64,000 nt of DNA from Gamsiella multidivaricata (taxonomy: Eukaryota; Mortierellomycota; Mortierellomycetes; Mortierellales; Mortierellaceae), in contig NW_026251777.1 of the NCBI RefSeq assembly GCF_025024155.1, forward strand, positions 1-64,000, in the 5' to 3' direction. How positions within the stretch are numbered: position 1 is the stretch's first letter; each line of letters begins with the position of its first letter. Below are positions 7,604 to 28,866 of the stretch, one piece after another. A program made the position numbers and the translations under genes. The notes beneath the pieces were generated by a model, which made no database searches, was not told the DNA's origin, and worked only from the letters and a program-made list of their open reading frames with translations.

Positions 7604-7761
7604 GGTCGCGAAAGACTGCGCCTTTTTGGATGAAAGAAGTGTGTGGAATGATCCTCTTGAGTGAGTGCGCACACAACTCCTATTTGTGTTGAGTGAGAGA
7701 ATTTTACTTCCCAAGTGGCCCAGGTGACGTGCGCTTGTGCTTTGTCGCCTTTTTCTTTTTT

Positions 7762-7770
7762 TTTAGGGGT
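7762..7770. repeat. Left target-site duplication of E1
   Basis: TTTAGGGGT directly precedes the first base of E1 and recurs directly after its reconstructed right end at 25624-25632. Read instead as 7 bp, TTAGGGG, the outermost element base on each side would be a T. Confidence 0.8.
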
Positions 7771-8309
7771 TAGGCTCGTTCCCATCCTGAGGGAGAAAAT
7801 CACGTGCAATGCGTACCGCATTATTGCCTTTAATGGCAATTTTGCACAATCTTTCTCCTCTCAGGCTGGGACCAAACTCGACCCTTTACTATAAAGTGGC
7901 ATTTTTCCTTGAGAAAAAAATCGCAAGTTGAAAATTGGCTGTAGAACGAGTCTTTGTGCTGGACCCGCGTGCAAAATATAAAAATATAAAATGTGAAATA
8001 TGAAATATAAGAAATGCCCCTGAACGCTGCGTGCGCCTGGGCCATGTTGAATGAAAAAAAATAAAAATAAAAAAAGCTACGTGCGCTGTCTCCATGCATC
8101 ACTCATCTCTTGCCTGAGCATTCTGTCTCCACGCGTCACCCCTTCTCTTATCATTGCCTCACCAACTCCTCTCTTACGCCAATCCTTGCTTACCCGTCTA
8201 CTGCACTCATCCATTCGTTGTCCGTCATCCCACGCCTGTACTATAACCCCTTCAGCCTAATAAACACTCTCTTATTTCAGTCAGCCATGAACAGCTATAC
8301 CAATACTGC
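7771..8309 (+). repeat. E1 left terminal inverted repeat, 539 bp
   Basis: It matches the complement of 13501-14031 plus the displaced CGAGCCTA terminus; both arms come to 539 bp and I saw no mismatch by eye. Landmarks from the tip are TAGGCTCG, CACGTG (7801-7806), the hairpin-forming ATTGCC-TTTAAT-GGCAAT (7823-7840) and CAGGCTGGG (7862-7870). The inner part is pyrimidine-rich, ends in CTTATTTCAG and includes the ATG at 8287 plus eight codons, so it must also act as promoter and 5' UTR. Confidence 0.85.
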
Positions 8310-10911
8310 AGTCAGTGATGCCCGATTGAACCATGTCTTTAACGCGATCAAGGCGAGCCGTCTCTCGCTGAATACTTTTCTGATTGCAAGCTTCGCTTCC
8401 AAGGACCGCCGCGTGAAGAGGCGTGTGGCCTGCTTCTATGGTGGTGATGGACCGGCGTCTGTTGTTGCTTTTTGGAAGGATAACATCAAGAAGCGAAAGC
8501 ACACCAAGACTCTTCTTCCAGCTGCCATTGACTTGGTCGTCCACTACGCCACCAGAGAGCTAAAAAGGATTGCGAAAGCAAAAGTCCTGCGACTGCCACC
8601 CTCCGAGATGACAGCGGAGAAAGCAACGGACTTCACTCCCAAGTTCATCACAGAGTGCTTTCAGAAGCATGCTCCGCATCTTTTGTCGTTGCTGAACGGT
8701 CTTGCGCGAGTGAACGGTCCTACCAAAGACAATGCTCCTGCCGAAGAAGACGGTTCTACAGAGGAGAACGATTCTGCGGAAGAGAACGACTCTGCGGAAG
8801 AAAACGACTCTGCGGAAGAGAACGATTCTGCGGGAGAGAACGATTCTGCGGGAGAGAACGATTCTGCGGGAGAGAACGATTCTGCGGGAGAGAACGACTC
8901 TGCGGAAGAGAACGATTCTGCGGAAGAGAACGATTCTGTGGAAGAGAACGGTCCTGCGGGCGAGAACAAGGCCACGACTATGAAGGCAGAGGCTGTAGTC
9001 ACTGCGATCGCGAGCATGTTGCTTTTCCTTTTCAACCGTCAAGCGAACTACCTTCAACTCCTTACAGGACTCTATTTGTATGGGAATGGTACCGCTCGGA
9101 GTGTCATCGGTATTCTCTCCAAAATTGGCCTGACTGTATCTCATCAAACAATCCATCGAACACTGCGAGCACTGTCCAACGACGCGTCTACTAAAGCGAG
9201 AGAGGCAGCCAATACCAAACCATTCTACATAGTGTACGATAATATAAACATTGCATTCCGCAAACACGACCAAAGGCTTTTCAATCAGGACTCGTTCGAC
9301 AATGGAACGACTGCAACTCTCATCGTATCGGACGTTACTGCTGAGGAAGAGATGGAAACCAATTCTGCGAAGCACCTACGCTTCAAAGACCTCTTACCTA
9401 AACATGACCATAACATCGCTATGTTCGAAACTTTCCGCTTCCACTTGGTTGGGGTTTTACAACGACGTGTTGAAACCTTCAAGAGCTGCTCGTGGCCCAC
9501 CCCAACAATCAAGCTTCTGCCGGTCAATGCGACCAAAACTTACCCGTTGCCTTTGATGCAAATTAACCAGGCGACTGTCCAGGGAAACAAGGACATCCTT
9601 GAGACAATTATGGAGATTGAGCTTCAGCTACCACCGGAATGGTTTGATGGAAGGCGGATACTTATCGCAGGGGACCAGCTTACAACAATCAGAGTTCACT
9701 CCTTGAAGAATCAGCGCTGGGATGACATTTCGACCTATCATCGACACGAATATGCAATTCCGATAATGCAGCTATTCCACCTACAGATGTTGTTGGGCGC
9801 CACCATCCTTCGCCACCACTATGGCTCGGCCGCAACGCCAGGATCAATAGCGTTCAATGCGTCGTTGCTGAATCGAAAGCGTGTCAGCCTTGATAAGCCC
9901 GACTTTCATGCAACAGATGAGTTGCTTCGCCAATCTTTTGAGGCGATGGCTTTGAGAGCATGGGAGATTATACTAGAGTGCGATAGCCTGAGCGAATATC
10001 AGCACAACGGCACAGAAGCAGAGCTCCTCGACCTTGTTGGCTCCAAAGTTAACACCATCCTCGAGCGGTTTATCATGAAGGGCAACCAAGAACATCTTGC
10101 TGACGTTGCTTCAAGAAACGCTGCCTTATTCCTCAGAGACATGATGCTGTACATCGAGCTTGCCTCAGCTATCAAGTGCGGCGATACCGGACGCCTGGAG
10201 AACGTCATCAAGCACATCACTGTCATTTTTCAGGCCGGCTCCACCAAAAACTATGCCAATGAGCTATTGCTTATGCACATTGGCCTCCATTATTCCTGGT
10301 CCCCTCAAACGAGGCGCGCCGTATTGTCGTGTATGCTGGTGAACCCCACCGGGAAGGAGGGCCGGTTTATTCCAACAGATCTCTACCAGGAGCACAACAA
10401 CTTAAGGACGAAGGAAATTCATGGCTTGAGGGGACGTAGTGCAAACTGGGGGACAATGGGAAGAGCAGTTTCAACCAACATTAGGACCTTTGATGAAATC
10501 GGGAAAGAGTTTCAAAAGGCTTGGGGTATAACTCCCGCTGGCACCAACCATACGACAGTGCCAGACACCAATGACATTAACGCAATACTGCAGAATATCC
10601 AGGAGAATGGTATCCTAGGCAACGATATTCAACCGCTCTCGGATATTGAGGGAGTGAGTGATCTGTTTGAGGATGGCATGGTGAAGCTGATGAAAAATGG
10701 ATATCTGGAGAGTTTTATCGATCGCAACACTCGTCTCCGGCAACAAACTGAGAGTGATGGAAGAGCAAGTCCCATGTCAGTGGACGATGAAATAAACAGC
10801 GAGATGGATGCTGAGGTGGACGAAGACATGGATGATCAGATAGACAATGAGGTGGGGTGGAATGGTATAGAATTCGGCATCGATGATTATGTTCAGGTTA
10901 CAGCAGAATAA
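8287..10911 (+). CDS. E1 DUF6589 protein, putative transposase
   Basis: An 874-aa protein with the fungal DUF6589 domain. ATG 8287 is chosen because no ATG exists upstream in frame and the helicase of E1 starts with the same codons. Residues about 155-240 are a low-complexity (A/G)-EENDS repeat. The domain core has VYDNINIAFR (D318), AGDQLT (D463), FRDMMLYIELASAIKCGD-type sequence, NYANELL (E659), LVNPTGK and DLYQEHNN (D698, E702). The spacing of invariant acidic residues, D then D then E, fits an RNase H-fold nuclease, but this is inference; DUF6589 has no assigned activity that I know of. The C-terminal 60 residues are acidic. It converges on the helicase gene, with a LINE tail between them. 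Confidence 0.85.
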   Translation: MNSYTNTAVSDARLNHVFNAIKASRLSLNTFLIASFASKDRRVKRRVACFYGGDGPASVVAFWKDNIKKRKHTKTLLPAAIDLVVHYATRELKRIAKAKVLRLPPSEMTAEKATDFTPKFITECFQKHAPHLLSLLNGLARVNGPTKDNAPAEEDGSTEENDSAEENDSAEENDSAEENDSAGENDSAGENDSAGENDSAGENDSAEENDSAEENDSVEENGPAGENKATTMKAEAVVTAIASMLLFLFNRQANYLQLLTGLYLYGNGTARSVIGILSKIGLTVSHQTIHRTLRALSNDASTKAREAANTKPFYIVYDNINIAFRKHDQRLFNQDSFDNGTTATLIVSDVTAEEEMETNSAKHLRFKDLLPKHDHNIAMFETFRFHLVGVLQRRVETFKSCSWPTPTIKLLPVNATKTYPLPLMQINQATVQGNKDILETIMEIELQLPPEWFDGRRILIAGDQLTTIRVHSLKNQRWDDISTYHRHEYAIPIMQLFHLQMLLGATILRHHYGSAATPGSIAFNASLLNRKRVSLDKPDFHATDELLRQSFEAMALRAWEIILECDSLSEYQHNGTEAELLDLVGSKVNTILERFIMKGNQEHLADVASRNAALFLRDMMLYIELASAIKCGDTGRLENVIKHITVIFQAGSTKNYANELLLMHIGLHYSWSPQTRRAVLSCMLVNPTGKEGRFIPTDLYQEHNNLRTKEIHGLRGRSANWGTMGRAVSTNIRTFDEIGKEFQKAWGITPAGTNHTTVPDTNDINAILQNIQENGILGNDIQPLSDIEGVSDLFEDGMVKLMKNGYLESFIDRNTRLRQQTESDGRASPMSVDDEINSEMDAEVDEDMDDQIDNEVGWNGIEFGIDDYVQVTAE
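8743..8965 (+). repeat. 18-bp minisatellite inside the E1 DUF6589 gene
   Basis: About twelve units of GAGAACGATTCTGCGGAA and variants encode a repeated ENDSAE/ENDSAG hexapeptide. The reading frame is kept throughout. Neither the E2 nor the E3 protein has this insertion. Confidence 0.85.
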
Positions 10912-10918
10912 AACATTT

Positions 10919-11168
10919 ATTTTTTCACCCGATACCCTTTTTATAACACGTAGTCTTCAGCTTTTAACACACTGATGAGGTGTGGCAATTGTTGCCCAGG
11001 CCCTAGGGGCACGCCCGTGTAATGCGATATGTCAACTGGCGACTATAAATTGATGAAGAGGACAACTGTGGTAGATCTTTGCTAGTTAGTCTGGTAGATT
11101 CGCAGAGTCATTTGACTAGAGAGACAAATTGTTATAAAATAAAAAAAATAATAATAATTTTTTCATCC
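10919..11168 (+). mobile_element. LINE-B 3' tail inserted between the two E1 genes
   Basis: The 226-bp body (10931-11156) matches the 3' ends at 44460-44676 and, reversed, 53560-53760: TTTTAACACA-TGATGAGG, the CCCTAGGGGC block, and AGACAAATTGTTATAAAAT followed by an A-rich tail. It is flanked by a 12-bp duplication, ATTTTTTCACCC at 10919-10930 and ATTTTTTCATCC at 11157-11168, one mismatch. It is a dead-on-arrival 5'-truncated copy. Confidence 0.75.
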
Positions 11169-11180
11169 ATGCACTACTGA

Positions 11181-11332
11181 TCAGGTTTTTTTTGAAAAAT
11201 TCATGGCGGTCTTGACTCTGAAAGGGCATTGTGCTCTTTGTGTCGGTGGTTGTTTCCTTTGACGTTGTCGTTTAAGAGTCTGTTGCTCGTGTTGCTCCAA
11301 CTGCTCCAGTTGTTCAATCTGTTGCCGCTTTG

Positions 11333-11389
<57 letters not shown>

Positions 11390-11509
11390 CTTGCTCTTGC
11401 TCTTGCTCTTGCAGTTGCTGTTCCAGTCGTTGTTGCTGTTGCTCTATCTGTTCCATTTGCTGTTGCTGTTGCTGTTCCAGTTGCTTGTGCTGTTGCTTTA
11501 GCTGTTCCA

Positions 11510-11540
<31 letters not shown>

Positions 11541-13523
11541 TTGCTTTTGCCATCTCTGTAGCAAGATCTGTTGCTGTTCCTGTCGCTGTTGCTGTTGCTG
11601 TTGCGATTGCTGGTGCCATTGCTGTTGCCGTTGCTGGTACTGTTGCTCTTGCTCTTGCCGTTGCTGTTGCTGTTGCTGCTGCTCTTGCAGTTGCTTCTTA
11701 TCCCATTCCTGCAATTCATCTTTCGAATCACTCGATAGTAGTCGTTTGAGCTCTAGCATGTGCTGTTTGAATTCTTTGATAGACTCTGATGTGGCTGTTG
11801 GTGGTTCTGGTGCTGGTATCTGTAGCGTTATGTATGGCAAGCCTTGTTTGAGATCTATCCTGCTCTGCGCTCCGGCTGGCGCTGGTGCTGATGCTGGTAC
11901 TGGTGCTGGTACTGATGCCGATGCTGGTGCTGGTGCTGGTAGTGCTGGTTGATGCGGCATTGTATTTTGCAAATATTGTCTGAGGTCTATCCTTTTCAGT
12001 CCTGACGGCCTTTCAGATCTGATTGTTACGTTCAGCTCTATGAGCCTGATGCTGAGCATTCGTCCGATTAGAGGCGTCAGTGGCTCCCAACGGACGACCT
12101 CAGGGAGACTCGTTACCTTGACGACAGCGGCGCTTTTGGCTGCTAGCTTGTCCATCATTGAATCAGGCATCACACTGCCTAAGCCCACTAGATAGCAGCG
12201 ATCCTTGTAGAAGAGATTGAAAGCGTCAAGCCTCCAGGCCTTGATCACCTCCAATGCGCGAGCCTTCTCTGCTCCTGCCCGTAATGGTGGCCGACCTTTC
12301 TTAATTTTACTGGTCCCCGCAATTCCCGTTTCCATGACAAATTCGGGGTTACATATGTCGCAACAGTTTTCTAGATCCTGGTGTTGGTTGTTGAAATACG
12401 AATTCAGATATCTGCGTCGACAGGTGGTCGAGGTGACATATTTTTTGAGTGCCGGTTCAATCGACTGGATATCACGTCGTGGCACAAGAAGAATCCCGGA
12501 CCCAGAAATGTGTGGATCGCGCGCCGCTCGACCAAGTCGTTGAACAAGAGTCGAGATATTGTTGGGATATCCATACTGGACGACGCGGACAACGTCACTG
12601 ATATCGCACCCCATTCCTGCTGCCTCCGTCGACAGCAATACATATATGCGGTTGGCCTTGAAATCATTCATGCGCTTGACCTTTAGCTCGTCAGACTTCA
12701 TCGCATGGTAGACGGCGACCTTGTCCGCGTCCATGAGTCCCCTGAGGTATCTAGAGGCAGCCTCAGCGTCATCGATCGATTGAAAATAAACAATCGTCTT
12801 GAGTCCATCCTTCAGAAAACGGAGATCCTCAAAAGTTTTTGTCTTGAAACGCTGAAACACGACGATGTATTTGACGTTGATCCTGTCGTTGCCGACGTTA
12901 ACGACCTCAATGTTCTTCTTGAAATACAGAGTGCTGATGACTGTCGAAAGAAGGGCAGGTGGCAAAGTGGCCGAGATCGCAAGAAAACATGTTGTCCGGG
13001 CGACCTTGGAGCGCAGTTGTCCGAGAAGTCCATAATGCTTCCTGAATTCCAGGCCCCAAGTCCCAATACAATGGGCTTCATCCACAACGACTGCTCGTAA
13101 CCGCTTTCTCCATTCGGGTTGAGTCCAAAGACCTACGAGACTCTGAAACACAATCTCGGGAGACATAAAAACAGCTCGGAAGACCCCTTTCATCAGGTCG
13201 TCGAAAGGGATCTTCATCCCACCCTTGAGGTTGATGCTAGATATCCCTGCGTCCTCGAGTTTTTGATGTTGCTCGTCTCCCAGCGCCCTAAGTGGAGTAA
13301 TGACCACTATCACATCGTCCGACCAAAGTATCAGAGGAAGAAAATAGACCAACGTCTTGCCCCACCCCGTGCCAGCAATAAGGACGCAGTCTTCGCGCTT
13401 GCTGATCTTGTCTACTACTCTAAGCTGTTCTGGCTTCGGTTGATATCCAAAAACCTCTTGGCAGCGCTGGATTGTGTTGTTAGGGAGTGAGCAAAGGCCC
13501 GCAGTATTGGTATAGCTGTTCAT
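11181..13523 (-). CDS. E1 RecQ-family DNA helicase with poly-Gln tail
   Basis: A 780-aa superfamily 2 helicase. Motif order and residues: Walker A GTGWGKT (51-57), DEAH (148-151) followed by CIGTWG, SAT (184-186), STEAAGMGCD (about 298-307), QRLGRAARD (328-336), then a cysteine cluster CRRR...CCDIC (368-391) as in the RecQ zinc-binding subdomain. The region after residue about 560 is Pro/Ala-rich, and residues about 650-770 are almost wholly glutamine. Start ATG 13523 lies in the right inverted repeat, giving the same MNSYTNTA N-terminus as the DUF6589 protein. RecQ enzymes unwind 3'-5' and resolve recombination intermediates; a role in excision or repair of the element is inferred. Telomere-linked RecQ genes of fungi are the nearest known analogy. 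Confidence 0.9.
11240..11720 (-). repeat. CAG/CAA-type repeat encoding poly-glutamine
   Basis: Read on minus, this is a mixed CAA/CAG tract with scattered Glu, Leu, Lys and Arg codons; the longest pure run is near 11337-11390. It encodes the tail of the E1 helicase. Confidence 0.9.
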
Positions 13524-14031
13524 GGCTGACTGAAATAAGAGAGTGTTTATTAGGCTGAAGGGGTTATAGTACAGGCGTGGGATGACGGACAACGAATGGA
13601 TGAGTGCAGTAGACGGGTAAGCAAGGATTGGCGTAAGAGAGGAGTTGGTGAGGCAATGATAAGAGAAGGGGTGACGCGTGGAGACAGAATGCTCAGGCAA
13701 GAGATGAGTGATGCATGGAGACAGCGCACGTAGCTTTTTTTATTTTTATTTTTTTTCATTCAACATGGCCCAGGCGCACGCAGCGTTCAGGGGCATTTCT
13801 TATATTTCATATTTCACATTTTATATTTTTATATTTTGCACGCGGGTCCAGCACAAAGACTCGTTCTACAGCCAATTTTCAACTTGCGATTTTTTTCTCA
13901 AGGAAAAATGCCACTTTATAGTAAAGGGTCGAGTTTGGTCCCAGCCTGAGAGGAGAAAGATTGTGCAAAATTGCCATTAAAGGCAATAATGCGGTACGCA
14001 TTGCACGTGATTTTCTCCCTCAGGATGGGAA
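13501..14031 (-). repeat. E1 right terminal inverted repeat, interrupted by E2
   Basis: This is the complement of 7771-8309 down to GATGGGAA; the last eight bases, CGAGCCTA, are displaced downstream by E2 and E3. It contains the helicase start codon and its presumed promoter. 531 bp here plus 8 displaced equals the 539 bp of the left arm. Confidence 0.85.
14025..14031. repeat. Left target-site duplication of E2
   Basis: ATGGGAA adjoins the E2 terminus CTAGGCTCG. The right copy at 20477-20482 reads ATGGAA, one G shorter. The pair brackets a site eight bases inside the right end of E1. Confidence 0.65.
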
Positions 14032-14819
14032 CTAGGCTCGAACCCATCCAGCCGACGGAAGCGCGTTGCACGTGACCGTGCACGTGGCTAAGGCCAGCCT
14101 TAATGATTTTCGCCTTTTAAGGCAATCGTGGCTTGGCTCTTGCCATTGCTTCTGTGGCAGGCTGGGGTCAAACTCGACCCTCTACTAAGGGTTAGCTTTT
14201 TGCGCACAAATCCCATGTAAACAGGTGGTCGTCGCACAAAATCCATGTAAAAATAAAGTTTCCCGCAAAACTTTTTTTTCACACACGGTCTTTTTTTTTT
14301 TTTTTTTTTCTTCATATCTTGCTCTTCTTCCTCATCTTCTTCCTTGTCTCCTTCACTCCCCACCCACCTACCTCAATCCATACTGCACCTCTATACCCTC
14401 TCTACCCTCCATACCCTCCATACCCTCCATACCCTCCATACTCTCCAAACTCTTCCTCTATACCATTCCACGAGACCGTCTACCATACCGACGCCTCACA
14501 GGTACGAGGCTATGCTTCATTTTTTCTCACGCTTTGTACCGGTGTAAGCCAACCTGGATAGCCTAGACCAACTAACCATACAATCTAACGTGTGTAGACT
14601 CTTCAGTCTATCTCCATACTCCTTCCAAGGTAGGTTGTCGTGCTTCATTATCTCGCGTTCGCGTCGTGTCATTCAGAACAATGCAGACCATCTAACACAG
14701 GTTTTTTTTTTTAGCACATCAATCCTTTAAAATGACTGCTCCTCCGCCCTATCCTCCTCAACCTGCTATTCCTTGCCAAGTCAGGACTGCTGAGCGCTGT
14801 CTGGGTGCTGATATGGATG
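14032..14819 (+). repeat. E2 left terminal inverted repeat, about 788 bp
   Basis: It matches the complement of 19688-20476. It contains two CACGTG sites (14069-14074 and 14081-14086), the near-palindrome GCCTTTTAAGGC (14112-14123), a GGCAGGCTGGGG block near 14157, a long T run, and four to five copies of a CATACCCTC decamer near 14395-14440. The repeat includes the ATG at 14732 and 29 codons of the gene. Confidence 0.85.
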
Positions 14820-17539
14820 AGAAACTTGTTATCCTTCCTCTTCGCCCTCCCACGATTACTCCTCGTCAAGCCCGGGCCGCTAAGCGCCGTAAGCAGAAGG
14901 AACTGGATAACAAGCTGAAGGAACGGGATAACAAACTGAAGGAGTGTTTTGCGGAAATGAGTGGAAACAACGCAGAAAAGATCATCAGGGTAATGAGCAT
15001 GATGGATTGCACGATGTTGCAGCTCATGAATCAGTACTTTACGTCAAGCGATCGGAATGACACTAGGGCTGCCTTGTTCTACGGAAACGGAGGCCCCAAG
15101 TCCATCATGGACCTTTGGGACAAAAACATACGCAACACGGACGCAAAGAACTCATTCAGGGGCACCATCATGAAGATCGCATCAAACATAGCTCGTGAGG
15201 AAATAAACCGTGCCAAGAATGCCGCCTGTTTCAAAACACCGTCTCCAACGTTCACCCGACAAAAGGCAGTTGATTTCTCGCTCGAAACCCTTTCAAAAGA
15301 CTTGCATTCGAAGGCGCCGCATCTTATGTTCATGCTAGGGCAGATGACGAGCGTGAGCAAAAGCAACGGGCGCAGTCAGTCAGTCATACTTCCATTAATT
15401 GGAAGCATGATTTTGAACCTTTGTTGTCGTACGTGCAATAGTTTGCAGATGGTTTTGGGTCTTTTTCTTTTCAGTAACGGAACTCCAAAGCAGGTCGTCG
15501 AGGTCTTTTGCCGCTCTGGTTTATCGGTGTCTCCCAAGACTATAGATCGAACATTAGAAACACTTGGAAAAGACTCCATGAAGAGAGCACAGGAGGCCAT
15601 GAGGACGAAACATTGCAGTTTAGTCTACGACAACATTAATTTTGCACTTCGGAAGTCCGATCAGCGCTCCAACAACGCCGACAACTTCGAAAGCGGCACT
15701 GCCGGGACACTTATACGGGGTGAGGATCCAGGATTGCCAGATCTACGGACTGACCAAGAGATTTTCGCAGAGTATCAACCCAAGGATCTACGCATCTCAA
15801 GTGCAGACAATGCACATGCTGATTTGGTCTTCCGGAACATTTTCTCTGAGGTAAGGTTACTTGAATCGCGTCATGTATGCGTTTTTAGCTGACAAATACA
15901 ATCGGGACAATATGCTGGTGGCTAATATATATTCATAACCCATCAACAGGTTTTACATCGCCGTGTTGAGTCGTTCAAAGGCTCCATGCTTCCAGCTCCG
16001 ACAATCTTACCCCTTCCTCTGGAAAAGACAGAGACATTCCCACTGCCAACTTTGCCCATCAACCAGTCAAGCGTGGATGGAAACATAAGCGTTCTAGAGG
16101 AGTACTGTCGCCAACTCAAACTAGAACCAAAATGGTTCAACGACAAGCAAATACTCACCTTAGGGGATCTTCTTACCACTCTTCGGCTCAGGGGTGCGAA
16201 GATGGCACGGCGGGATGACACAGACAGTTTCAACAGGATAGATTGGGCGATACCAGTGCCACAGCTTTTCCACTTGCAGATGTCATTCGCAGGAACAATC
16301 CTCAGTACTCATTACGGAGATAAGAACGAAGCCGGATCCTTGGCATACAACGCAGAGATGCTAAACAGGAAGAGAGTCAGCATCAACAAATTTGACTTTC
16401 ACGCCGTGAACGAGCTATTGCGACATACATTCGACGCTATGGTTCTGCGATTTTGGCAAGTGGAGCTAGGAGTGGAGGACCTGAATGCATTCGGGGAAAC
16501 TCATAATCAGAAGGAGCTCTCAGATATGGTTTCCGAAAGGATTCCCCGCTTTATTTCAAGATGTCTAGATCCTGAGCAGAGATGCCAGTTCGACGTGGCC
16601 TCACGTAACTCATTCATCTTCCTCAGAGACACGGCTTTCTACTTGGAGCTGGCCAACGCTATCAAGGCTGGAGATGTGGGACGTATTGAGAGTGTGGTGA
16701 AATGGATATCAGTGATGTTTCAGGGTTCTTCGGCCACAAACTATGCTAATGAGCTGCTTCATCTGCATTGTGCGCTGAATTATAGGTATTCGGCTCAGAC
16801 AAAGAGAGCTGTGCTGTCTTCATGGCTAGTTAACACGACTGGAAAAGATGGTGGATGGATTCCTACGGATTTGTACCAGGAGCATAACAACCTCCTTATC
16901 AAAGTTGTGCATTCAGCAAGGGCTAGCTCTACACCATGGGAGACAATGTCGACCAAAATTGCACCAAACATCGAGATTTTTGCAGAGGTCAAGAAGATAA
17001 TTCCAGCAATGTTCAAGACTCCACGGAATAAGAATTGGCACAACCCCGTTTCTGCAGATATCGACATCAACAAGGTCATTGTGACGCTAAGGGAGTCTGG
17101 TATCTTCGAAGCGAAACAAGGCGACGACGATCTAGACTGCACGATGGACACCAAACCAGTGAGGGATCTCTTTGACACTGGCAATGAAAACATATGTTCT
17201 CTTAAAAAGTTCCGTGAGTTCCGAGCTCGCAACCAAAGCTCCAACAACTATCCGAGTCATCATACCTCAGAATGTGGCAGTCCATACAATGTCAATGATG
17301 GACCACAGCAATACAACATCTCGCAATATTTACAGGACATCCAACAAGACGAACTCTCGGACATGGATACGCAGAGCATCTGCTCCATCAGCCCAAACGA
17401 TGTGGACTACGACGATGGCGCCGCCTTTGAGAGATATATTACTACAAATAAGGAGTTGGAACTGGATGCAGTAGAGGAGTACTTAGATCCTTCTGATAAC
17501 AACGAGGACCAAGATGATGAAGACTTTGATGAACTTTGA
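14732..17539 (+). CDS. E2 DUF6589 protein, putative transposase
   Basis: Two exons, 14732-15850 and 15950-17539, with a 99-bp GT-AG intron (GTAAGG donor; CAACAG acceptor; CTAAT branch-like sequence) give 902 aa. The splice restores the block FSEV-LHRRVESF that is continuous in E1 and E3. Conserved residues: VYDNINFALR (D300), LGDLLT (D446, where E1 and E3 have GDQLT), DFHAVNELLRH, NYANELL (E641), LVNTTGKDGG and DLYQEHNN. A lysine-rich segment near residues 50-75 precedes the domain, and the C-terminus is acidic. The first 29 residues come from the inverted repeat and are shared with the helicase. Function is inferred as for E1. Confidence 0.85.
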
Positions 17540-17588
17540 AGCTTTTAATAAGACGCTCAAAATAAGAAAAATAAATCGTGCTCAGTTA

Positions 17589-19775
17589 TTATATAAACGG
17601 ATTAGCAGGGTCATTTCGATCGTCGTGTCCAGGTTTTGGAACTATCGTGAGTGGCGAATGCGGGTGGCCGCTTTCAATCGTCTGTTGGCGAACCTTGGAA
17701 GGCGTGTTTCCCGCCTCATATGGCTTCCACTTCAGAATTTTGGCGGGAGTCTGCGGACGACTGCTAGTAGGTGTCTGTTGACGAATCTTGATAGGCATCG
17801 AATCCTGGGGCCGATAATGTACCAATTTAATACGAGGGGTAGTGGGCGTTTGCGGCTGACTGATAATAACTGTTTGTTGACGATTACTAGTAGGTGTGAA
17901 ATCTTGTAATTGATAATTTATCCGTTGAGCAGGAGTTCTAGTGGGCGGTCTCGGGTGTTCTTGAGCGCGGCCACTAGTAGGTGTCTGTGGACACTCAAGC
18001 TCCTCTAAATCCTCCAAATATGGCTCCTCGATCCGATGAAGCCGCAGGACTGGCGAATTCGGCGCATCGACTCCAAATTCTTTTGCCATAAAACTCTCCG
18101 TCATCTCCATATTGTTCTCGTCATATATCCTTGTAAATGGCGGCTCGTTTGAAGGAATGGCGAGCTGACTAAGAACGTCCCAAAGAGTTTGAACCACTGC
18201 GATATCCTCAGACCAATCGGCAACTTCCACAAGTTCCACAGCAGATTTGATACTTCCGAACTTTTTGATGATCCTGTCTATCATTTTGTCCGGCAGCACG
18301 TTTCCAACTCTGTATGCGACGCACTGCGTGCGATAGAAACGCTCAAACCGATCCTTTCGCCACTGCTCAATTGTTTCCCTGATTTGTTTGCCGTCTTTTG
18401 CTGAAATATTGATTTTGTTCTTACGGCTTGGAAGTACCAATCGGGCGCCCATCTGTGCTGGAGTCGCTACGTTAGGTTGACACTTGTCACAACAATTAAC
18501 GATCTGCACCGGCGTGTTGTTGAAGAATCTGTTGAGGACAACTCGGCGACACGGATGGGCGTTAATATATTGTTGAAGATGGCTCTCATCCATTGTTGGT
18601 TGTGCAAGACGAGGAAATGTTTTCGCGTATAGTAGTATCCCTTCACCCTCCAAATTCGGATCGCGCGCAGCTCGACCAATCCTCTGGACAAGTGTTGACA
18701 AACTTGAGGGTATCCCATACTGCACTACTCGGACCACATCGCTGATGTCACAGCCCATCCCAGCAGCCTCTGTTGCCAACAATATCCAGTAGTTGTTGTT
18801 CGTAAATCGCTTCATAACCAACTCCTTGCGCTCATCTGACTTCCCCGCATGGTAAACGCCAATCCGTTTTCTTAAATTCTCCGGCGCCAGACGCCTCAAA
18901 TATGTCTGAGCGTTCGCACACTCAGCTCGACTATCGAAATAAACGATGGTCTTTTTATCGAAACCCAAGAGAAAGTTGAGGTCCTGAAAACTGTTTGCTG
19001 GATAACAAAATGCCTTCGCTGTATACTTGACGTTCCTTCGATCGTTCCCTTCGTTGACCACCACGATGTCGCTTTTATAGCTCAGGCATACTTTGACTGC
19101 TTCTAAGGCCTTGGTCGTGAGTGTCGCTGTCAGGGCTATAAACGCCTTTCTTGGAGGTAACCATCTTCGTATCTCACCAATGCGCCCATATGCTTTCCGG
19201 AAGTCGTCGCCCCAATGGTTGATGCAGTGTGCTTCGTCGACAATCACTGCTAAAAGTAGGCGTCTCCAACTCTTATTGAACCATATGTCCTTCAATCGAG
19301 TACTGTCAAATACTAACTCCGGAGACATGAACACTGCTCGGTATTTTCCTGACGCCAGCTCCTTGATGCAGTTGCTATCAATGATCGTCTCCCGGCGGAG
19401 AAAAATGCTCGAGATATCGACGGCCTGAAGTTTTTGATCTTGTTCCTTGCCCAAAGCCGTCAAAGGGGTCAATACAACGATTATTCTGTCGGGCCAGAAG
19501 ATAAGTGGAAGAAAGTACACCAACGTTTTGCCCCATCCACATCCTGCTATTAACACGCAGTCTTCGCCTTGACCTATCTTCCTTGCGACTTCAAGTTGCA
19601 ATGGCTTGGGAGACACCTTGAAAGTTCTCAAACAGCGTTCACTGGCGTCTTCCGGAAGAGAGAGAGGAGAAAAGATAGCCAGGTTTCCATCCATATCAGC
19701 ACCCAGACAGCGCTCAGCAGTCCTGACTTGGCAAGGAATAGCAGGTTGAGGAGGATAGGGCGGAGGAGCAGTCAT
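17589..19775 (-). CDS. E2 RecQ-family DNA helicase
   Basis: A 728-aa helicase starting MTAPPPYPPQ at ATG 19775, inside the right inverted repeat. Motifs: GCGWGKT (78-84), DEAH (180-183) with CINHWG, TAT in place of SAT, ATEAAGMGCD, QRIGRAARD, then CRR...CCDKC as the zinc-binding cluster. The C-terminal 200 residues are low-complexity with repeated QQTPTSSRPQTP-like units. The stop is 49 bp from the stop of the converging DUF6589 gene, so transcripts are likely to overlap. Motifs are complete, so the protein should be active. Confidence 0.9.
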   Translation of the reverse strand: MTAPPPYPPQPAIPCQVRTAERCLGADMDGNLAIFSPLSLPEDASERCLRTFKVSPKPLQLEVARKIGQGEDCVLIAGCGWGKTLVYFLPLIFWPDRIIVVLTPLTALGKEQDQKLQAVDISSIFLRRETIIDSNCIKELASGKYRAVFMSPELVFDSTRLKDIWFNKSWRRLLLAVIVDEAHCINHWGDDFRKAYGRIGEIRRWLPPRKAFIALTATLTTKALEAVKVCLSYKSDIVVVNEGNDRRNVKYTAKAFCYPANSFQDLNFLLGFDKKTIVYFDSRAECANAQTYLRRLAPENLRKRIGVYHAGKSDERKELVMKRFTNNNYWILLATEAAGMGCDISDVVRVVQYGIPSSLSTLVQRIGRAARDPNLEGEGILLYAKTFPRLAQPTMDESHLQQYINAHPCRRVVLNRFFNNTPVQIVNCCDKCQPNVATPAQMGARLVLPSRKNKINISAKDGKQIRETIEQWRKDRFERFYRTQCVAYRVGNVLPDKMIDRIIKKFGSIKSAVELVEVADWSEDIAVVQTLWDVLSQLAIPSNEPPFTRIYDENNMEMTESFMAKEFGVDAPNSPVLRLHRIEEPYLEDLEELECPQTPTSGRAQEHPRPPTRTPAQRINYQLQDFTPTSNRQQTVIISQPQTPTTPRIKLVHYRPQDSMPIKIRQQTPTSSRPQTPAKILKWKPYEAGNTPSKVRQQTIESGHPHSPLTIVPKPGHDDRNDPANPFI

Positions 19776-20476
19776 TTTAAAGGATTGATGTGCTAAAAAA
19801 AAAAAACCTGTGTTAGATGGTCTGCATTGTTCTGAATGACACGACGCGAACGCGAGATAATGAAGCACGACAACCTACCTTGGAAGGAGTATGGAGATAG
19901 ACTGAAGAGTCTACACACGTTAGATTGTATGGTTAGTTGGTCTAGGCTATCCAGGTTGGCTTACACCGGTACAAAGCGTGAGAAAAAATGAAGCATAGCC
20001 TCGTACCTGTGAGGCGTCGGTATGGTAGACGGTCTCGTGGAATGGTATAGAGGAAGAGTTTGGAGAGTATGGAGGGTATGGAGGGTATGGAGGGTATGGA
20101 GGGTAGAGAGGGTATAGAGGTGCAGTATGGATTGAGGTAGGTGGGTGGGGAGTGAAGGAGACAAGGAAGAAGATGAGGAAGAAGAGCAAGATATGAAGAA
20201 AAAAAAAAAAAAAAAAAGACCGTGTGTGAAAAAAAAGTTTTGCGGGAAACTTTATTTTTACATGGATTTTGTGCGACGACCACCTGTTTACATGGGATTT
20301 GTGCGCAAAAAGCTAACCCTTAGTAGAGGGTCGAGTTTGACCCCAGCCTGCCACAGAAGCAATGGCAAGAGCCAAGCCACGATTGCCTTAAAAGGCGAAA
20401 ATCATTAAGGCTGGCCTTAGCCACGTGCACGGTCACGTGCAACGCGCTTCCGTCGGCTGGATGGGTTCGAGCCTAG
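19688..20476 (-). repeat. E2 right terminal inverted repeat, about 789 bp
   Basis: The complement of 14032-14819, with the helicase start codon inside its inner end. It ends GGGTTCGAGCCTAG. Confidence 0.85.
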
Positions 20477-20479
20477 ATG

Positions 20480-20486
20480 GAACGAG
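20480..20486. repeat. Left target-site duplication of E3
   Basis: GAACGAG adjoins the E3 terminus CTAGGCTCG and is repeated exactly at 25613-25619. The right copy continues CCTA + TTTAGGGGT, that is, the tip of E1 and the E1 target duplication. Confidence 0.85.
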
Positions 20487-20833
20487 CTAGGCTCGTAACC
20501 AGCCTGAGGACGAGAGCACGTGAGTGGAAATTGGATTGCCTTTTAAGGCAACCACTCTCTTTTCTCTCTCTCTCAGGCTGGGATAGAACTCGAGTTATTA
20601 GCAGGGACCAGAAAAAAAAAGGAGAGCAATTTTTTCAAAGTCGGAAATAGGCTGTGAAGTGGTTCTTTTGCATGCAAATTGTCTGCCGCACTGGAAAAAA
20701 AAAAAAAAAAAATATGCATGCATGCATGCCCCCCTACACTCCATCTGCTTTCTTTCAATTCACACGCTTCGCTTCTCTCTCAGCTCTTCTCTCCTTTCTT
20801 CACACTCCCACCTTTCCGTCTTTGCATCTTCAA
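20487..20833 (+). repeat. E3 left terminal inverted repeat, about 347 bp
   Basis: It pairs with 25266-25612. Landmarks are CACGTG (20517-20522), the palindrome TTGCCTTTTAAGGCAA with a 2-base centre (20536-20551), CAGGCTGGGA near 20572, a long A run and a TGCATGCATGCATGC tract. Unlike in E1 and E2, the repeat stops short of the start codon at 20845. Confidence 0.8.
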
Positions 20834-20844
20834 GGATTTCGAAA

Positions 20845-23265
20845 ATGAAACTCGATGACCGTTTGCATATTATCTTGACTACGATGGCCACCCATAACCT
20901 CACCTTGGGCAAATTTTTGAAGGCGTGCTTTGCATCGAAGGACCCAAGAGTGCAGTTCAAGATATCGCGTTTTCTCGACAGCACTGGCCCAGCAGGACTC
21001 GTGCAGGCCTTATCGGAAGGAGTTACGGAACCCAGGCCAGTCGCGGCTGTCATGGAGTCAGCTATCAATCTTGTCGTCAAACATTGCACGGCCGAACTCG
21101 ATAGTGCTCGTTCGAGTCGCAGCTTGCATCTCCCCTCAACCTCCATCACCGCAGCCAGCGCGACAGGATTTGAGCTTACCACCTTCAGCAAACGCATCCA
21201 ACGAGCCGCCCCTTTTCTTTTTCGACTACTGATCGGCTTGGCGAGCATCAATACAGCTACCACTCGGTCAGTTCCAACAGTCATCACGGTCATGTCCAGC
21301 ATGTTTCTATTTCTTCGCAACCAGCATTGTAATTACTTTCAGATGATCATGGGGCTCTACATGTTCAGTAAAGGTGCGTCACGACTACTCATCAACCTAT
21401 TTTCAAGGGCTGCCCTATCGGTCTCGTACTCAACCATTTTAACCGGCCTCAGGTCCTTAACAACGGACGCCTCCAAAAAAGTTCAAGCGGCAGTCAAAGA
21501 GAAGGATTGGTATGTCGTCTACGACAACATCAACATCGCTTTCCGTAGGTCAGACCAGCGACTCCTGAATACAGATACTTTCGAGAATGGAGCGTTGGCG
21601 ACCATCATCATTTGCGATACTCACTGCGAGCCCGATCTTGACGACAACCCCGCTCGACACCTTACCCTGGACCACCTCATTCCCCACGCGGATAATGAAG
21701 ATCATCTCAGGCTGGTTTTTCGGCACCATCTGACTAAGGTGCTTAATCGACGCATTCCGGCGCTTGATTCGCGCCCCGAATGCGTGATGCCTGCCCCCAC
21801 GAAAAGGCTGCTTCCATATAATGCAACAACCACTTTTCCTTTGCCTTCAATGAACATTGATCAGTCTTCCATCCAAGGGAATCAAGAGATCCTCAATGCT
21901 ATCATGGAGAGCGCACTGGAGTTACCGCCAGAGTGGTTCAATAACCGGAGACTCATTCTCGCAGGAGACCAACTAACTGTCAGCCGACTTCGATCGTTAA
22001 AACAGTTGCGCTGGGATGACGTCTCTACATACCATCGACTGGATTGGGCGATCCCAGTGATGCAGCTCTTTCATATGCAGATGCTTTTAGCCTCGACCAT
22101 CCTTCGGACTCATTATGGCTCTATGTCTGCACCCGGATCCTTGGCGTACAATGCGGTAATGCTTGGAAGGAAACGAGTCAATTTGGACAAGCCCGACTTT
22201 CACGCCACAGATGAGCTCCTCCGACACACTTTTGACGGCATAGTTTTGCGGCTCTGGGAGATAGAGATGGGGCATGATGATATAGAATCGTTTGCATTCG
22301 AAGGGAGTGCTGACGAGCTCAAGGACTTCGTTGATCGTAAGGTCACTATCATCCTGGAGAGGTATTTTACCACAGTAAACTTGGACCAGCTTAACGGCAC
22401 AGCCTCCAGGAACGCTGCCTTATTTCTGCGAGACATGATGGTCTACATGGAATTATCGTCTGCCATCAAATGTGGCGATATTGGGCGCATTGAGGAGAGC
22501 ATTCGATGGATCACAATCATTTTTCAGGCTGGCTCAACCATGAACTATGCCAACGAACTTCTTCACTTTCACTGCGGTCTATTCCATTCCTGGTCTGAGC
22601 AGACAAAGCTCGCTGTGATGTCCTCGTTGCTGGTGAACACGTCAGGCCAGAAGGATAGGTTTCTGCCAGCGGATCTTTTCCAGGAGCACATGAACCTCCA
22701 GGTAAAGACCATTCACGCCGCTAAAGGAAGCAACGCCAGCTGGGAGTTTATCGCGAAAGCCGTGTCGACCAATGTTGGCGTGTTTGCTTCTATCGAGAGA
22801 ACGTTGGAGACGCAGTTCGAGGTCCCCAAGAGTGGGAGCAAACACGCACAAGTATCTGCGGCAGCAGACATCCGGAGCATCATCTCATCACTCAAGGCAA
22901 CCGCCATTCTGATGAGGGATATACCCCTATCTCATGAATGTCACAAGGACCTGACTCCAGTGACAGATTTGTTTGTAAAGGGTATTGTCAAGCTGTCAGA
23001 GGGGAAGCGCCTTCAATCATTCCTTGCCGCCCATGCCCGAAATCATAGCCGCCCCACAGAACCGATGGATATTGCTGTCGACATGGATAAGGCTTCACTT
23101 TTTGCCGGTTCAGGATCTGACGTGAATATGACTGGAGAAGCAAGGCAGTATCAATGCGACGACCATGACGAGTGTGCCATAGAACACTATTTACATGACA
23201 ATAACATGGGACCGGCGCAGGAACTAGTCTTTGACATTGATGTGTATCTGGGAGAATTAGAATGA
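20845..23265 (+). CDS. E3 DUF6589 protein, putative transposase
   Basis: An intronless 806-aa protein; ATG 20845 is the first in-frame ATG. The domain shows VYDNINIAFR (D227), AGDQLT (D375), PDFHATDELLRH, FRDMMVYMEL-like and AIKCGDIGR blocks, NYANELL (E571), LVNTSGQ and DLFQEHMN. It is the shortest of the three and lacks both the E1 repeat insertion and the E2 lysine-rich leader, so it probably shows the minimal form. The tail is again acidic. Role in transposition is inferred from invariant acidic residues and from being one of only two genes in the element. Confidence 0.85.
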   Translation: MKLDDRLHIILTTMATHNLTLGKFLKACFASKDPRVQFKISRFLDSTGPAGLVQALSEGVTEPRPVAAVMESAINLVVKHCTAELDSARSSRSLHLPSTSITAASATGFELTTFSKRIQRAAPFLFRLLIGLASINTATTRSVPTVITVMSSMFLFLRNQHCNYFQMIMGLYMFSKGASRLLINLFSRAALSVSYSTILTGLRSLTTDASKKVQAAVKEKDWYVVYDNINIAFRRSDQRLLNTDTFENGALATIIICDTHCEPDLDDNPARHLTLDHLIPHADNEDHLRLVFRHHLTKVLNRRIPALDSRPECVMPAPTKRLLPYNATTTFPLPSMNIDQSSIQGNQEILNAIMESALELPPEWFNNRRLILAGDQLTVSRLRSLKQLRWDDVSTYHRLDWAIPVMQLFHMQMLLASTILRTHYGSMSAPGSLAYNAVMLGRKRVNLDKPDFHATDELLRHTFDGIVLRLWEIEMGHDDIESFAFEGSADELKDFVDRKVTIILERYFTTVNLDQLNGTASRNAALFLRDMMVYMELSSAIKCGDIGRIEESIRWITIIFQAGSTMNYANELLHFHCGLFHSWSEQTKLAVMSSLLVNTSGQKDRFLPADLFQEHMNLQVKTIHAAKGSNASWEFIAKAVSTNVGVFASIERTLETQFEVPKSGSKHAQVSAAADIRSIISSLKATAILMRDIPLSHECHKDLTPVTDLFVKGIVKLSEGKRLQSFLAAHARNHSRPTEPMDIAVDMDKASLFAGSGSDVNMTGEARQYQCDDHDECAIEHYLHDNNMGPAQELVFDIDVYLGELE

Positions 23266-23285
23266 GATCGTTAGAAAATAAATTC

Positions 23286-25238
23286 TTATTTTTTTTGTTT
23301 ATTAAAAAAGCCCTGGGGCGTCTGGACCTTGAAGTAGAGTTCTGGCCTTGCGCTAGGTAGCTGTCTCGGCCTCGGCTGTAAAAGAGAAGGAGCAGCCTGC
23401 CCTGACGATTCCTGGTCCGATTCAACTCCTATCTCGGTAAATGACAAGCGAGGGGGAGGCACTATCTTGTTGCAGTCAATATACCGCGTTCGAGATTGAC
23501 GAGTCGGCGTTAAAGGGTGCGGTATGAATACGACAGTGCCGCGCTGTGGGGTCGCTGGACATGCTGGAGTTGTTGGCTGCGATGGGTATGATCGTGGTAG
23601 CGATGGGTATGGTCGTGGTAGCGATGGGTATGGTCGTGGTAGCGATGGGTATGGTCGTGGTAGCGGTGTGTTTTTTTTTGCTTCTTGAACCTCAATATCG
23701 TTGTTGAATTTAACAAGACGATTGCCAAGGTCCTGCAAAAACTCGCTCTTCAGCGGCAGCCAACTTATGGTTGTCAGTATCGACTCCGGTGTTGTGATCC
23801 GACCGCACTTCTCTGCAAGTTTCTGAATCGTCGCGTCCGTCATCAGACATTCCGGAGTAAATAACATGAATTTTCCCCTGTAGTGTTCGTCAAAAGTTTG
23901 ATCTCTCCAGCTCATTATAATCTGCTTGGCTAGCTGCTTCTGGCCCGCCGTGCGAGGTTGTGTTGTTGCCTTCGTTGATGCGCTGCTTGAAGCCTCTGTG
24001 CCACAATCCTGCGCTGCATTTATCGCGTCCTTAGGTGCCTCCGTGTCCTCCTCTGGTGGTAAATCAGGGTGGCAGTTGTCGCAGCAGTGAGCATCAACAT
24101 CTCTGTGCGTGTTCTGGAATACCTCGTTGACGTATCTGCGGCGACAGCTGGAGATGGTCACGTAGTCACGAAGGAACGGGTCGACCAGCGAGGGCGCCTG
24201 TGAGGGAACAAGAAAGATGCTAATCCCCTGCAGTGCCGGGTTTCTTCCTGCTCTTCCCAGCCGCTGAAAAAGCACCGAGATGCTGCCAGGATATCCATAC
24301 TGGACGACACGTATGACGTCGCTGATATCGCAGCCCATTCCAGCTGCTTCCGTCGATAGCAATATGCAGACACGGTTTTGCTTGAAGTCCTCCATCTTGT
24401 TGCGCTTATACAGCTCTGACTTGGCCGCATGAAAGATTGCCACGCTATTGACTCCCACTAGCGCCTTGACGTAAACCGCGGCTGACTCGACTTCCATGAG
24501 AGTCTGAAAGTAAACAATCGTCTTGACCTTATCCTTCAGAAAAAAAAGGTCGTGAAAAGTGGAACGTCCATGCTTCATGATGCTAACAGTGTATTTAATG
24601 TTGATCCTATCGTTGCCTACATTGACGACGGTAGCGTTTTTGAACAGCATGGAACTGGTAAGCGTGGTAAGAAGCGCGGGCGGCAAGGTGGCAGATACTG
24701 CAAGGAACGAGACGTCAGGATGAGCCATAGCGCGCAATCGGCCAAGCTGACTGTAAGCCTGTCGAAAATCCATGCCCCAAGTTCCGACGCAGTGAGCTTC
24801 ATCGACGACGATATTGCGCAAACGACTTCTCCATCCTTTGTCCTGCCATAACGCTGATAGTCGTGAGCTCTTGAAGATAATCTCTGGAGAAGTAAACACG
24901 GCTCGATATTTTCCTGATGCCAAATCTGCGATATTGGTACGCGTTTCTTGCTTGATATTGATGCTGGGAATGCCAAGCGCAACAAGCTTTGAGTGTTGCT
25001 CGTCGCTTAAAACTTTGAGTGGGCTGACAATGAGAATGATGTCGTTCGGCCAAATGAGCAAAGGCAGAAAGTAAACCAGTGTTTTTCCCCATCCAGTGCC
25101 TGCAATCAAAATGCAGTCTTTCATCCGCCCTAACATTTCCACCACTTGTATTTGCTCTGCCCTTGGACGATACCCGAAAGCCGCCTGACAGATTTGAGCG
25201 GTGTCTTCTGGAAGCTGCCTCTTGCGGTGCGCCGCCAT
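23286..25238 (-). CDS. E3 RecQ-family DNA helicase
   Basis: A 650-aa helicase from ATG 25238 (MAAHRKRQ). Motifs: GTGWGKT (47-53), DEAH followed by CVGTWG, SAT, STEAAGMGCD, QRLGRAGRN, and CRRRY...CCDNC as zinc cluster. The tail contains tandem RPYPSLP repeats from a 21-bp minisatellite at about 23580-23662. Its stop is 20 bp from the stop of the DUF6589 gene. All catalytic motifs are intact. Confidence 0.9.
   Translation of the reverse strand: MAAHRKRQLPEDTAQICQAAFGYRPRAEQIQVVEMLGRMKDCILIAGTGWGKTLVYFLPLLIWPNDIILIVSPLKVLSDEQHSKLVALGIPSINIKQETRTNIADLASGKYRAVFTSPEIIFKSSRLSALWQDKGWRSRLRNIVVDEAHCVGTWGMDFRQAYSQLGRLRAMAHPDVSFLAVSATLPPALLTTLTSSMLFKNATVVNVGNDRINIKYTVSIMKHGRSTFHDLFFLKDKVKTIVYFQTLMEVESAAVYVKALVGVNSVAIFHAAKSELYKRNKMEDFKQNRVCILLSTEAAGMGCDISDVIRVVQYGYPGSISVLFQRLGRAGRNPALQGISIFLVPSQAPSLVDPFLRDYVTISSCRRRYVNEVFQNTHRDVDAHCCDNCHPDLPPEEDTEAPKDAINAAQDCGTEASSSASTKATTQPRTAGQKQLAKQIIMSWRDQTFDEHYRGKFMLFTPECLMTDATIQKLAEKCGRITTPESILTTISWLPLKSEFLQDLGNRLVKFNNDIEVQEAKKNTPLPRPYPSLPRPYPSLPRPYPSLPRSYPSQPTTPACPATPQRGTVVFIPHPLTPTRQSRTRYIDCNKIVPPPRLSFTEIGVESDQESSGQAAPSLLQPRPRQLPSARPELYFKVQTPQGFFNKQKK
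23580..23662 (-). repeat. 21-bp minisatellite in the E3 helicase gene
   Basis: Four near-perfect copies of GATGGGTATGGTCGTGGTAGC (plus-strand sense, 21 bp) encode the RPYPSLP heptapeptide on minus. Confidence 0.85.
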
Positions 25239-25265
25239 GGAGCCTGAAGTAAGAGACTGTTGCAG

Positions 25266-25612
25266 TTGAAGATGCAATGGCGGAAAGGTGGGAGTATAAA
25301 GAAAGGAGAGAAGAGATGAGAAAGAAGTGGAGCGTGTGTGTTAAAAGAATAGATGGACTGTGGGAGAGCATGCATGCATTCTTTTTTTTTTTTTTTTTTT
25401 TTTTCCAGTGCGGCAGACAATTTGCATGCAAAAGAACCACTTCACAGCCTATTTCCGACTTTGAAAAAATTGCTCTCCTTTTTTTTTCTGGTCCCTGCTA
25501 ATAACTCGAGTTCTATCCCAGCCTGAGAGAGAGAGAAAAGAGAGTGGTTGCCTTAAAAGGCAATCCAATTTCCACTCACGTGCTCTCGTCCTCAGGCTGG
25601 TTACGAGCCTAG
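25266..25612 (-). repeat. E3 right terminal inverted repeat
   Basis: It pairs with 20487-20833, with scattered mismatches inside and a perfect-looking outer 200 bp. It ends GGTTACGAGCCTAG. Confidence 0.8.
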
Positions 25613-25632
25613 GAACGAGCCTATTTAGGGGT
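25613..25632. repeat. E3 right duplication, E1 tip and E1 right duplication
   Basis: In order: GAACGAG (25613-25619, right duplication of E3), CCTA (25620-25623, last bases of E1), TTTAGGGGT (25624-25632, right duplication of E1). These 20 bases prove the nesting order. Confidence 0.85.
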
Positions 25633-28700: not shown

Positions 28701-28866
28701 GATAGCCAGACTCTTGAACACCCTGCCCTAGTCGGTGGGGGATGAGTAAAGCGTCGACCGAAACTGCGCCCCCAAGGTTGTGGTGAAGGTCTTGTGTTGC
28801 CAAGAACAAAGTGACGAGCAAGGACAACCTGCAGCGACCTGTCCGTGTGGAGAGTTGTTGACCCAT
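25776..28866 (-). CDS. Secreted GH95-family glycoside hydrolase (alpha-L-fucosidase type)
   Basis: Exons 28866-27932, 27838-27182 and 27081-25776 join in phase to 966 codons including stop. The N-terminus (from ATG 28866, GQQLSTRTGRCRLSLLVTLFLA) looks like a signal peptide, so the enzyme is probably secreted. The N-terminal beta-sandwich block FLLGNGRTQVLVGG...LNEESCWSGGPG is characteristic of GH95, as is NIDLQMNYWLAE at the start of exon 3, which lies in the catalytic (alpha/alpha)6 barrel. Family members remove alpha-1,2-L-fucose or, in some clades, galactose from polysaccharides. An Asp/Glu-rich insertion occurs early (residues about 60-100). Both introns are short (93 and 100 bp). Substrate cannot be set from the sequence. 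Confidence 0.88.

Follow-up and report, generated by a model that had tools for sequence, protein, structure and literature searches.

The nested elements

The first 64,000 bases (the window) of a 193,978-bp contig from the 37.5-Mb genome of Gamsiella multidivaricata contain three elements, E1, E2 and E3, each with long inverted repeats and two convergent genes, one for a protein of the Pfam family DUF6589 (PF20231) and one for a RecQ-type helicase with DEAD and Helicase_C domains (Table 1). E1 spans 17.9 kb (7771–25623) and carries E2 and E3 within its right tip, a nesting that is apparent because the outer coordinates of the preliminary description of this DNA are exactly the two tips of E1. 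The right repeat of E1 breaks off after GGATGGGAAC at 14032 and its final 8 bases, CGAGCCTA, resume on the far side of E3, so that the break holds first E2 and then E3. The left tip of E1 is unbroken (TAGGCTCGTTCCCATCC); it shows the right tip as it was before the insertions and thus provides an internal empty-site control.

The tip sequence TAGGCTCG is found at 7771, 14033, 20468–20475 (-), 20488, 25604–25611 (-) and 25616–25623 (-). It has seven matches in the window where 1.23 are expected, and none of 100 shuffles reaches seven; the seventh match (28477–28484, minus strand) lies inside pieces of a glycoside hydrolase 95 gene and is probably due to chance. Terminal inverted repeats, as expected of DDD/E transposons, measure 348–818 bp in the window elements. 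That of E1 extends over 532 bp from position 8 inward and is 100% identical between the arms, that of E2 over 818 bp (98.7% identical) and that of E3 over about 346–348 bp (93.4% identical overall). The repeats proposed earlier therefore stand, with measured lengths of 532, 818 and 348 bp in place of 539, about 788 and about 347 bp. E1 and E3 are flanked by exact 9-bp target duplications (TTTAGGGGT/TTTAGGGGT and GGAACGAGC/GGAACGAGC), and the flanks of E2, GATGGGAAC/GATGGAAC, are 9 and 8 bp with one G missing. The duplications had been given as 7–9 bp, of which the shorter reading arose from counting C...G flanks as part of the tip.

The probable intron of the E2 DUF6589 gene is a 99-bp GT-AG intron and one of ten listed joins that keep the frame, and in the E3 DUF6589 frame another ATG, at 20722 (element position 235), precedes the chosen one. 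No nuclease family was found by Pfam among the seven window frames scanned, in which the matches below the cutoff were weak ones to the helicase-type families ResIII and Cas3-like_C_2.

Table 1. Coordinates of the three elements and their parts in the window
Feature	Position	Strand	Basis or remark
E1 left target duplication TTTAGGGGT	7762..7770	.	Identical to 25624–25632
E1 left terminal inverted repeat, tip TAGGCTCG	7771..8309	+	Extends 22 nt beyond first base of DUF6589 ATG at 8287
E1 DUF6589 protein, probable transposase, 874 aa from ATG	8287..10911	+	PF20231 E 5.3e-101; stop-to-stop frame 8071–10908
E1 RecQ-type helicase, 780 aa, Gln-rich tail	11181..13523	-	SF2/RecQ motifs, Zn-binding cysteines
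E1 right terminal inverted repeat, tip interrupted by E2	13501..14032	-	Arm comparison
E2, 6443 bp, repeats 14033–14849 and 19658–20475	14033..20475	.	818 bp, 98.7%; flanks GATGGGAAC/GATGGAAC
E2 DUF6589 gene, two frames, probable intron 15851–15949	14732..17539	+	PF20231 E 4.8e-106 on second frame, none on first
E2 RecQ-type helicase, 728 aa	17589..19775	-	Pfam domains, motifs
E3, 5124 bp, repeats about 20488–20833 and 25266–25611	20488..25611	.	Exact 9-bp duplication GGAACGAGC at 20479–20487 and 25612–25620
E3 DUF6589 protein, probable transposase, 806 aa from chosen ATG	20845..23265	+	PF20231 E 1.2e-107; stop-to-stop frame 20602–23262
E3 RecQ-type helicase, 650 aa	23286..25238	-	Best PDB match RecQ 4tmu, E 5.5e-34; motifs
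E1 right-tip remnant CGAGCCTA	25616..25623	-	Mirrors left tip at 7771; cut off from rest of E1 by E2 and E3
E1 right target duplication TTTAGGGGT	25624..25632	.	Identical to left copy

A recently mobile family

Counted exon by exon, the genome holds 59 DUF6589 and 64 helicase matches, numbers that are lower bounds, and several of these matches contain internal stops. Twenty loci were fetched and gene presence was scored from matches above 40 bits. Both genes are present at 15 of them and convergent at all 15, while three loci have DUF6589 only and two the helicase only. At 12 of the 15 two-gene loci (L018–L028 and L031) the genes lie between inverted repeats 245 bp or longer, in one piece of 245–860 bp at ten; the repeats of L019 and L028 are longer and reach the edge of the stretch. 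The repeat of L017 is cut by the contig end with 134 bp visible, and no inverted repeat was found around the genes of L029 and L030.

Target duplications were tallied for 16 copies with two ends (E1–E3, L018, L020–L023, L024–L027, L031, the insert in L020, L039 and L040), leaving out L017, L019, L028, L036 and L041–L045, where an end is missing, unresolved or single. Exact 9-bp duplications flank 11 of the 16, or 10 of 15 when the insert in L020, whose tip is matched on one side only, is set aside. Duplications of 8 bp occur at L020 (TGGTGGCA) and L031 (GGGCGCCC), that of L039 is irregular and none was found at the ends of L023. Besides TAGGCTCG, the family uses the tip variants GAAGCTCT (L020, L024–L027) and TAGTCTCG (L031).

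L024–L027 are 7210–7211 bp long and 99.96–100% identical; they occupy four sites, and an exact 9-bp duplication of its own flanks each copy. Between L021 and L022 identity is 99.94% and the duplications differ, and E3 is 99.0% identical to the cut copy L017. Near-identical copies at different sites point to recent movement, and the elements are a real, recently mobile DNA transposon family. The earlier picture of three elements with shared tips, inverted repeats and two convergent genes is thus confirmed in a stronger form than stated, with more copies in the genome. L040, at 546 bp, has no room for the two genes and is nevertheless flanked by an exact 9-bp duplication, so ends can be moved in trans.

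DUF6589 as a probable transposase

The predicted structure of the E3 DUF6589 protein (predicted local distance difference test 86.4, predicted template modelling score 0.83) matches the folds of Hermes, P-element, ISCth4, Tn5, Transib and RAG1, with Hermes (hAT) and the P element on top. In Hermes and the P element the RNase H core carries a helical insertion ahead of the final Glu, and the DUF6589 model has the same arrangement. On the strength of this model DUF6589 is very probably an RNase H-fold DDE transposase, as had been suggested from the sequence. Both Asp residues put forward at that time, those of YDN and GDQLT, are present in all 54 of the DUF6589 sequences over which conservation was scored. 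For the Glu two candidates had been offered, in YANELL (E571) and in QEHxN (E614). We take the catalytic Glu to be residue 572 in Hermes, 531 in the P element, 962 in RAG1 and 326 in Tn5. The aligned ranges place Hermes 609 at model residue 652, P element 565 at 650, RAG1 1008 at 659 and Tn5 372 at 656, and by offset arithmetic rather than residue alignment the Glu projects to about 615, 616, 613 and 610, respectively, adjoining E614. D227, D375 and E614 of E3 are therefore the probable catalytic triad, and E571 was rejected on the same offsets.

The C/DxxH signature between the second D and the last E was found in at most five of the 54 sequences at any single reference position, and at the H410 site the sequence is QxxH or GxxH. 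CxxC, which is part of the motif group that contains H(3-4)H, is present at no reference position in these sequences. The motif group is described in PMC12730594.

A sequence search of solved structures with DUF6589 gave no match up to an E-value of 1, and a profile search gave as its sole match a periplasmic binding protein (E 1.5). NCBIfam has no DUF6589 match up to E 0.001, and among viral contigs 188 pattern matches included no relative by tblastn. Relatives with a name are exclusively fungal among the matches listed (in one search the best 120 of 309), with no animal relative among them, and belong to Mortierellaceae and many mushroom-forming fungi. DUF6589 is unmentioned in the literature searched, papers outside that collection not being covered.

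The RecQ-type helicase and its pairing with DUF6589

The helicases of E1, E2 and E3 have motifs 0, I, Ia, II (DEAHC), IV, V and VI, a motif III that reads SATL in E1 and E3 and TATL in E2, and the zinc-binding pattern C...CC..C, so that the complete motif set of a RecQ-family helicase claimed beforehand was found in all three. The solved chains closest to the E3 helicase are RecQ, BLM and WRN. The NCBIfam model TIGR00614 (recQ_fam) scores 174–206 bits against a curated cutoff of 219.8, and the proteins are therefore better termed RecQ-type than typical RecQ. After the zinc-binding part, at about residues 436–515, the E3 helicase has a conserved segment that looks HRDC-like by eye and has no Pfam match.

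Gene trees were compared for 11 representatives chosen for matches to both genes, with identities mostly of 30–50%; the comparison covers no more than 86 DUF6589 positions for L029 and 263 helicase positions for L024. The two trees have the same branching except at one node in the E1/L019/L029 group, which has a support of 0.23 in the helicase tree, and the identity matrices are correlated (Mantel r 0.87, 55 pairs, with none of 5000 permutations as high). The ratio of nonsynonymous to synonymous substitution rates (dN/dS) is 0.33–0.53 across five pairs of diverged copies, which include decayed ones, and two comparisons of E3 with L017 are too close to be informative. The agreement of trees and matrices supports the view that both genes have been kept together through deep divergence, in line with the earlier proposal of a pairing retained in separate lineages.

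Relation to AcademH and to other systems

AcademH transposons were reportedly described by Kojima in 2020 (Mob DNA 11:15). According to later papers, AcademH elements have 9 or 10-bp duplications and AcademX elements 3 or 4-bp duplications, a difference tied to the encoded helicase or nuclease (PMC10045372), and DEAD and Helicase_C domains are tied to AcademH and KolobokH, with AcademH present in Basidiomycota, Ascomycota and Mucoromycota (PMC10799480). The E1–E3 family shares the helicase and the 9–10-bp duplications with AcademH and shows no difference from the descriptions in these citing papers, by which the two were compared; with 9-bp duplications and no nuclease family found in the seven frames scanned it is set apart from AcademX. 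Because helicase, duplication length and fungal range all fit the published descriptions, there is good reason for confidence that the family's members are autonomous class II elements of AcademH type with DUF6589 as their DDE transposase. The preliminary description held that no described superfamily has this gene pair, a claim that does not survive the published accounts of AcademH and of KolobokH, a fungal lineage with RecQ; the pair is not a novelty, and the elements are most likely fresh members of the AcademH kind. The putative identity of DUF6589 with the Academ transposase may be new.

A separate, undescribed superfamily, with a DDE transposase unrelated to Academ, its own capture of RecQ and coincident 9-bp duplications, would accord with the silence of the literature searched on DUF6589 and with the purely fungal named matches, and transposons have captured helicases repeatedly, as KolobokH also shows. 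Yet the helicase, the 9–10-bp duplications and the presence in both Mucoromycota and Basidiomycota match what those papers give for AcademH, and so broad a coincidence makes this reading unlikely. KolobokH, which is found only in fungi, resembles the family in combining a RecQ helicase with a DDE transposase, and in the red-algal Kolobok-1_CCri RecQ is even encoded on the complementary strand, just as in this family; but Kolobok duplications are the 4-bp TTAA, and C/DxxH between the second D and the last E defines the group of hAT, P, MuDR, Kolobok and Dada (PMC9587614). With 9-bp duplications and C/DxxH all but missing from DUF6589, identity with KolobokH was ruled out and retains very little probability. 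We know of no helicase in hAT transposons. The fold match to Hermes notwithstanding, hAT duplications are usually 8 bp (PMC12730594) against 9 bp here, and DUF6589 lacks the C/DxxH signature.

RecQ helicases also occur at fungal chromosome ends as telomere-linked genes in many copies (PMC4522978), and the window begins at base 1 of its contig, so that E1–E3 could be read as host subtelomeric RecQ genes amplified in tandem with DUF6589 as a mere neighbour. The likeness ends with the RecQ type and the copy number: nowhere in the window do even two exact TTAGGG units stand in tandem, the copies lie on many contigs within inverted repeats and 9-bp duplications, and near-identical copies occupy different sites, for which reasons the telomere link was rejected and is the least credible of the readings. 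Whatever the family, the helicase might be a passenger without a role in transposition, in keeping with the gene-less L040, whose exact duplication indicates that the helicase is unneeded in cis, and with the three of 20 loci that have DUF6589 only. The agreement of the gene trees in copies with both genes, but for one weak node, and dN/dS below 1 for both genes in two-gene copies render a passenger helicase improbable.

Inverted repeats as shared 5' regions

The E1 repeat ends 22 nt beyond the first base of both start codons, and both proteins consequently begin with MNSYTNTA. In E2 the repeat extends about 117 nt beyond both start codons, and in L021, whose arms are 420 bp long, each frame starts from the ATG at arm position 259. 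The E3 repeat stops short of the starts used (element positions 358 and 374), L018 has its first helicase ATG within the repeat and its first DUF6589 ATG outside, and the long frames of L024 begin well inside the element. Repeats thus reach the start codons in several copies and not in all, and may there serve as promoter and 5' end of both genes.

Within each of E1, L019, E2, L023 and L024 the arms are 98.7–100% identical, whereas the same repeat differs by 14–21% between the sister elements E1/L019 (453 bp), E2/L023 (879 bp) and L024/L020 (only 90 bp). The arms of E3 are 100% identical over the outer 225 bp and 93.4% overall, and those of E2 are 93% identical in the inner 148 bp. Being alike within and divergent between elements, the arms appear to undergo homogenisation, which is strongest in their outer part. 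A copying transposition driven by the helicase, in which one long end templates the other, is a speculative and rather doubtful source of this pattern; if true, it would keep the arms near-identical, along with the 5' ends that the two genes share, and it would explain 9–10-bp duplications in the helicase lineage as opposed to 3–4 bp in the nuclease lineage. Plain gene conversion between the arms is an alternative.

Insertions at family tips and neighbouring genes

E2 and E3 both lie within 17 bases of the right tip of E1 (window 14013–14032 and 20476–25623), and insertion into or next to the tip of another member recurs in the family (E2/E3 in E1, L020/L037, L045 and L039); another insert lies about 80–90 bases from the tip of the right repeat of L020. 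These individual cases suggest a possible attraction of the elements to the ends of their own family. L037 (C22:51240–55708) is a 4.47-kb insert in L020 with an exact 9-bp duplication (GGAGACCCC) and a frame with an NDC10_II domain, read as a Crypton-like tyrosine recombinase. At one of its ends 80 bp agree fully with the tip of the L021 family; the other end, TATGTTTTTGG, is unmatched. L037 is possibly a composite or partly replaced element. At the right end of L023 with L038 two tips stand head to head and share TA (CGAGCCTAGGCTCG), with no duplication. The small L039 (C171:112350–113150) has two consecutive left tips and shifted flanking repeats, as if it had been cut outside the proper tip.

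To the left of the nest a repeat-rich open frame of 945 aa (3720–7762, minus strand) with no Pfam match starts 9 bases from the left tip of E1, and behind it comes an eIF4A-like DEAD-box fragment. The 5' region of this gene may be where E1 lies. On its right the nest borders directly on the glycoside hydrolase 95 gene pieces, together with a GH65 N-terminal match (25776–28890, minus strand). A frame with an RNase H domain (54307–55710, minus strand) is possibly a retroelement remnant.

Proposed mechanism and significance

It is proposed that the DUF6589 transposase, bound to the long inverted ends, cleaves at the tips and links these to the target with a 9-base stagger; this cutting and joining chemistry is inferred from the modelled fold and the conserved acidic residues, and the 9-bp duplication is observed directly. 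The RecQ-type helicase, the second gene of the element, would probably melt or resect the ends or handle the gapped joints after insertion, and the inverted repeats may act as promoter and 5' end for both convergent genes. E1 would have arrived in the window before the others, E2 would then have entered its right tip and E3 would have inserted later into the same tip.

The recent movement of the family makes the role of a RecQ helicase in DNA transposition testable in a fungus. DUF6589, a Pfam family of unknown function, gains a very probable role as a DDE transposase, and genes annotated only as DUF6589 in Mortierellaceae and mushroom-forming fungi are therefore likely to be transposon genes.

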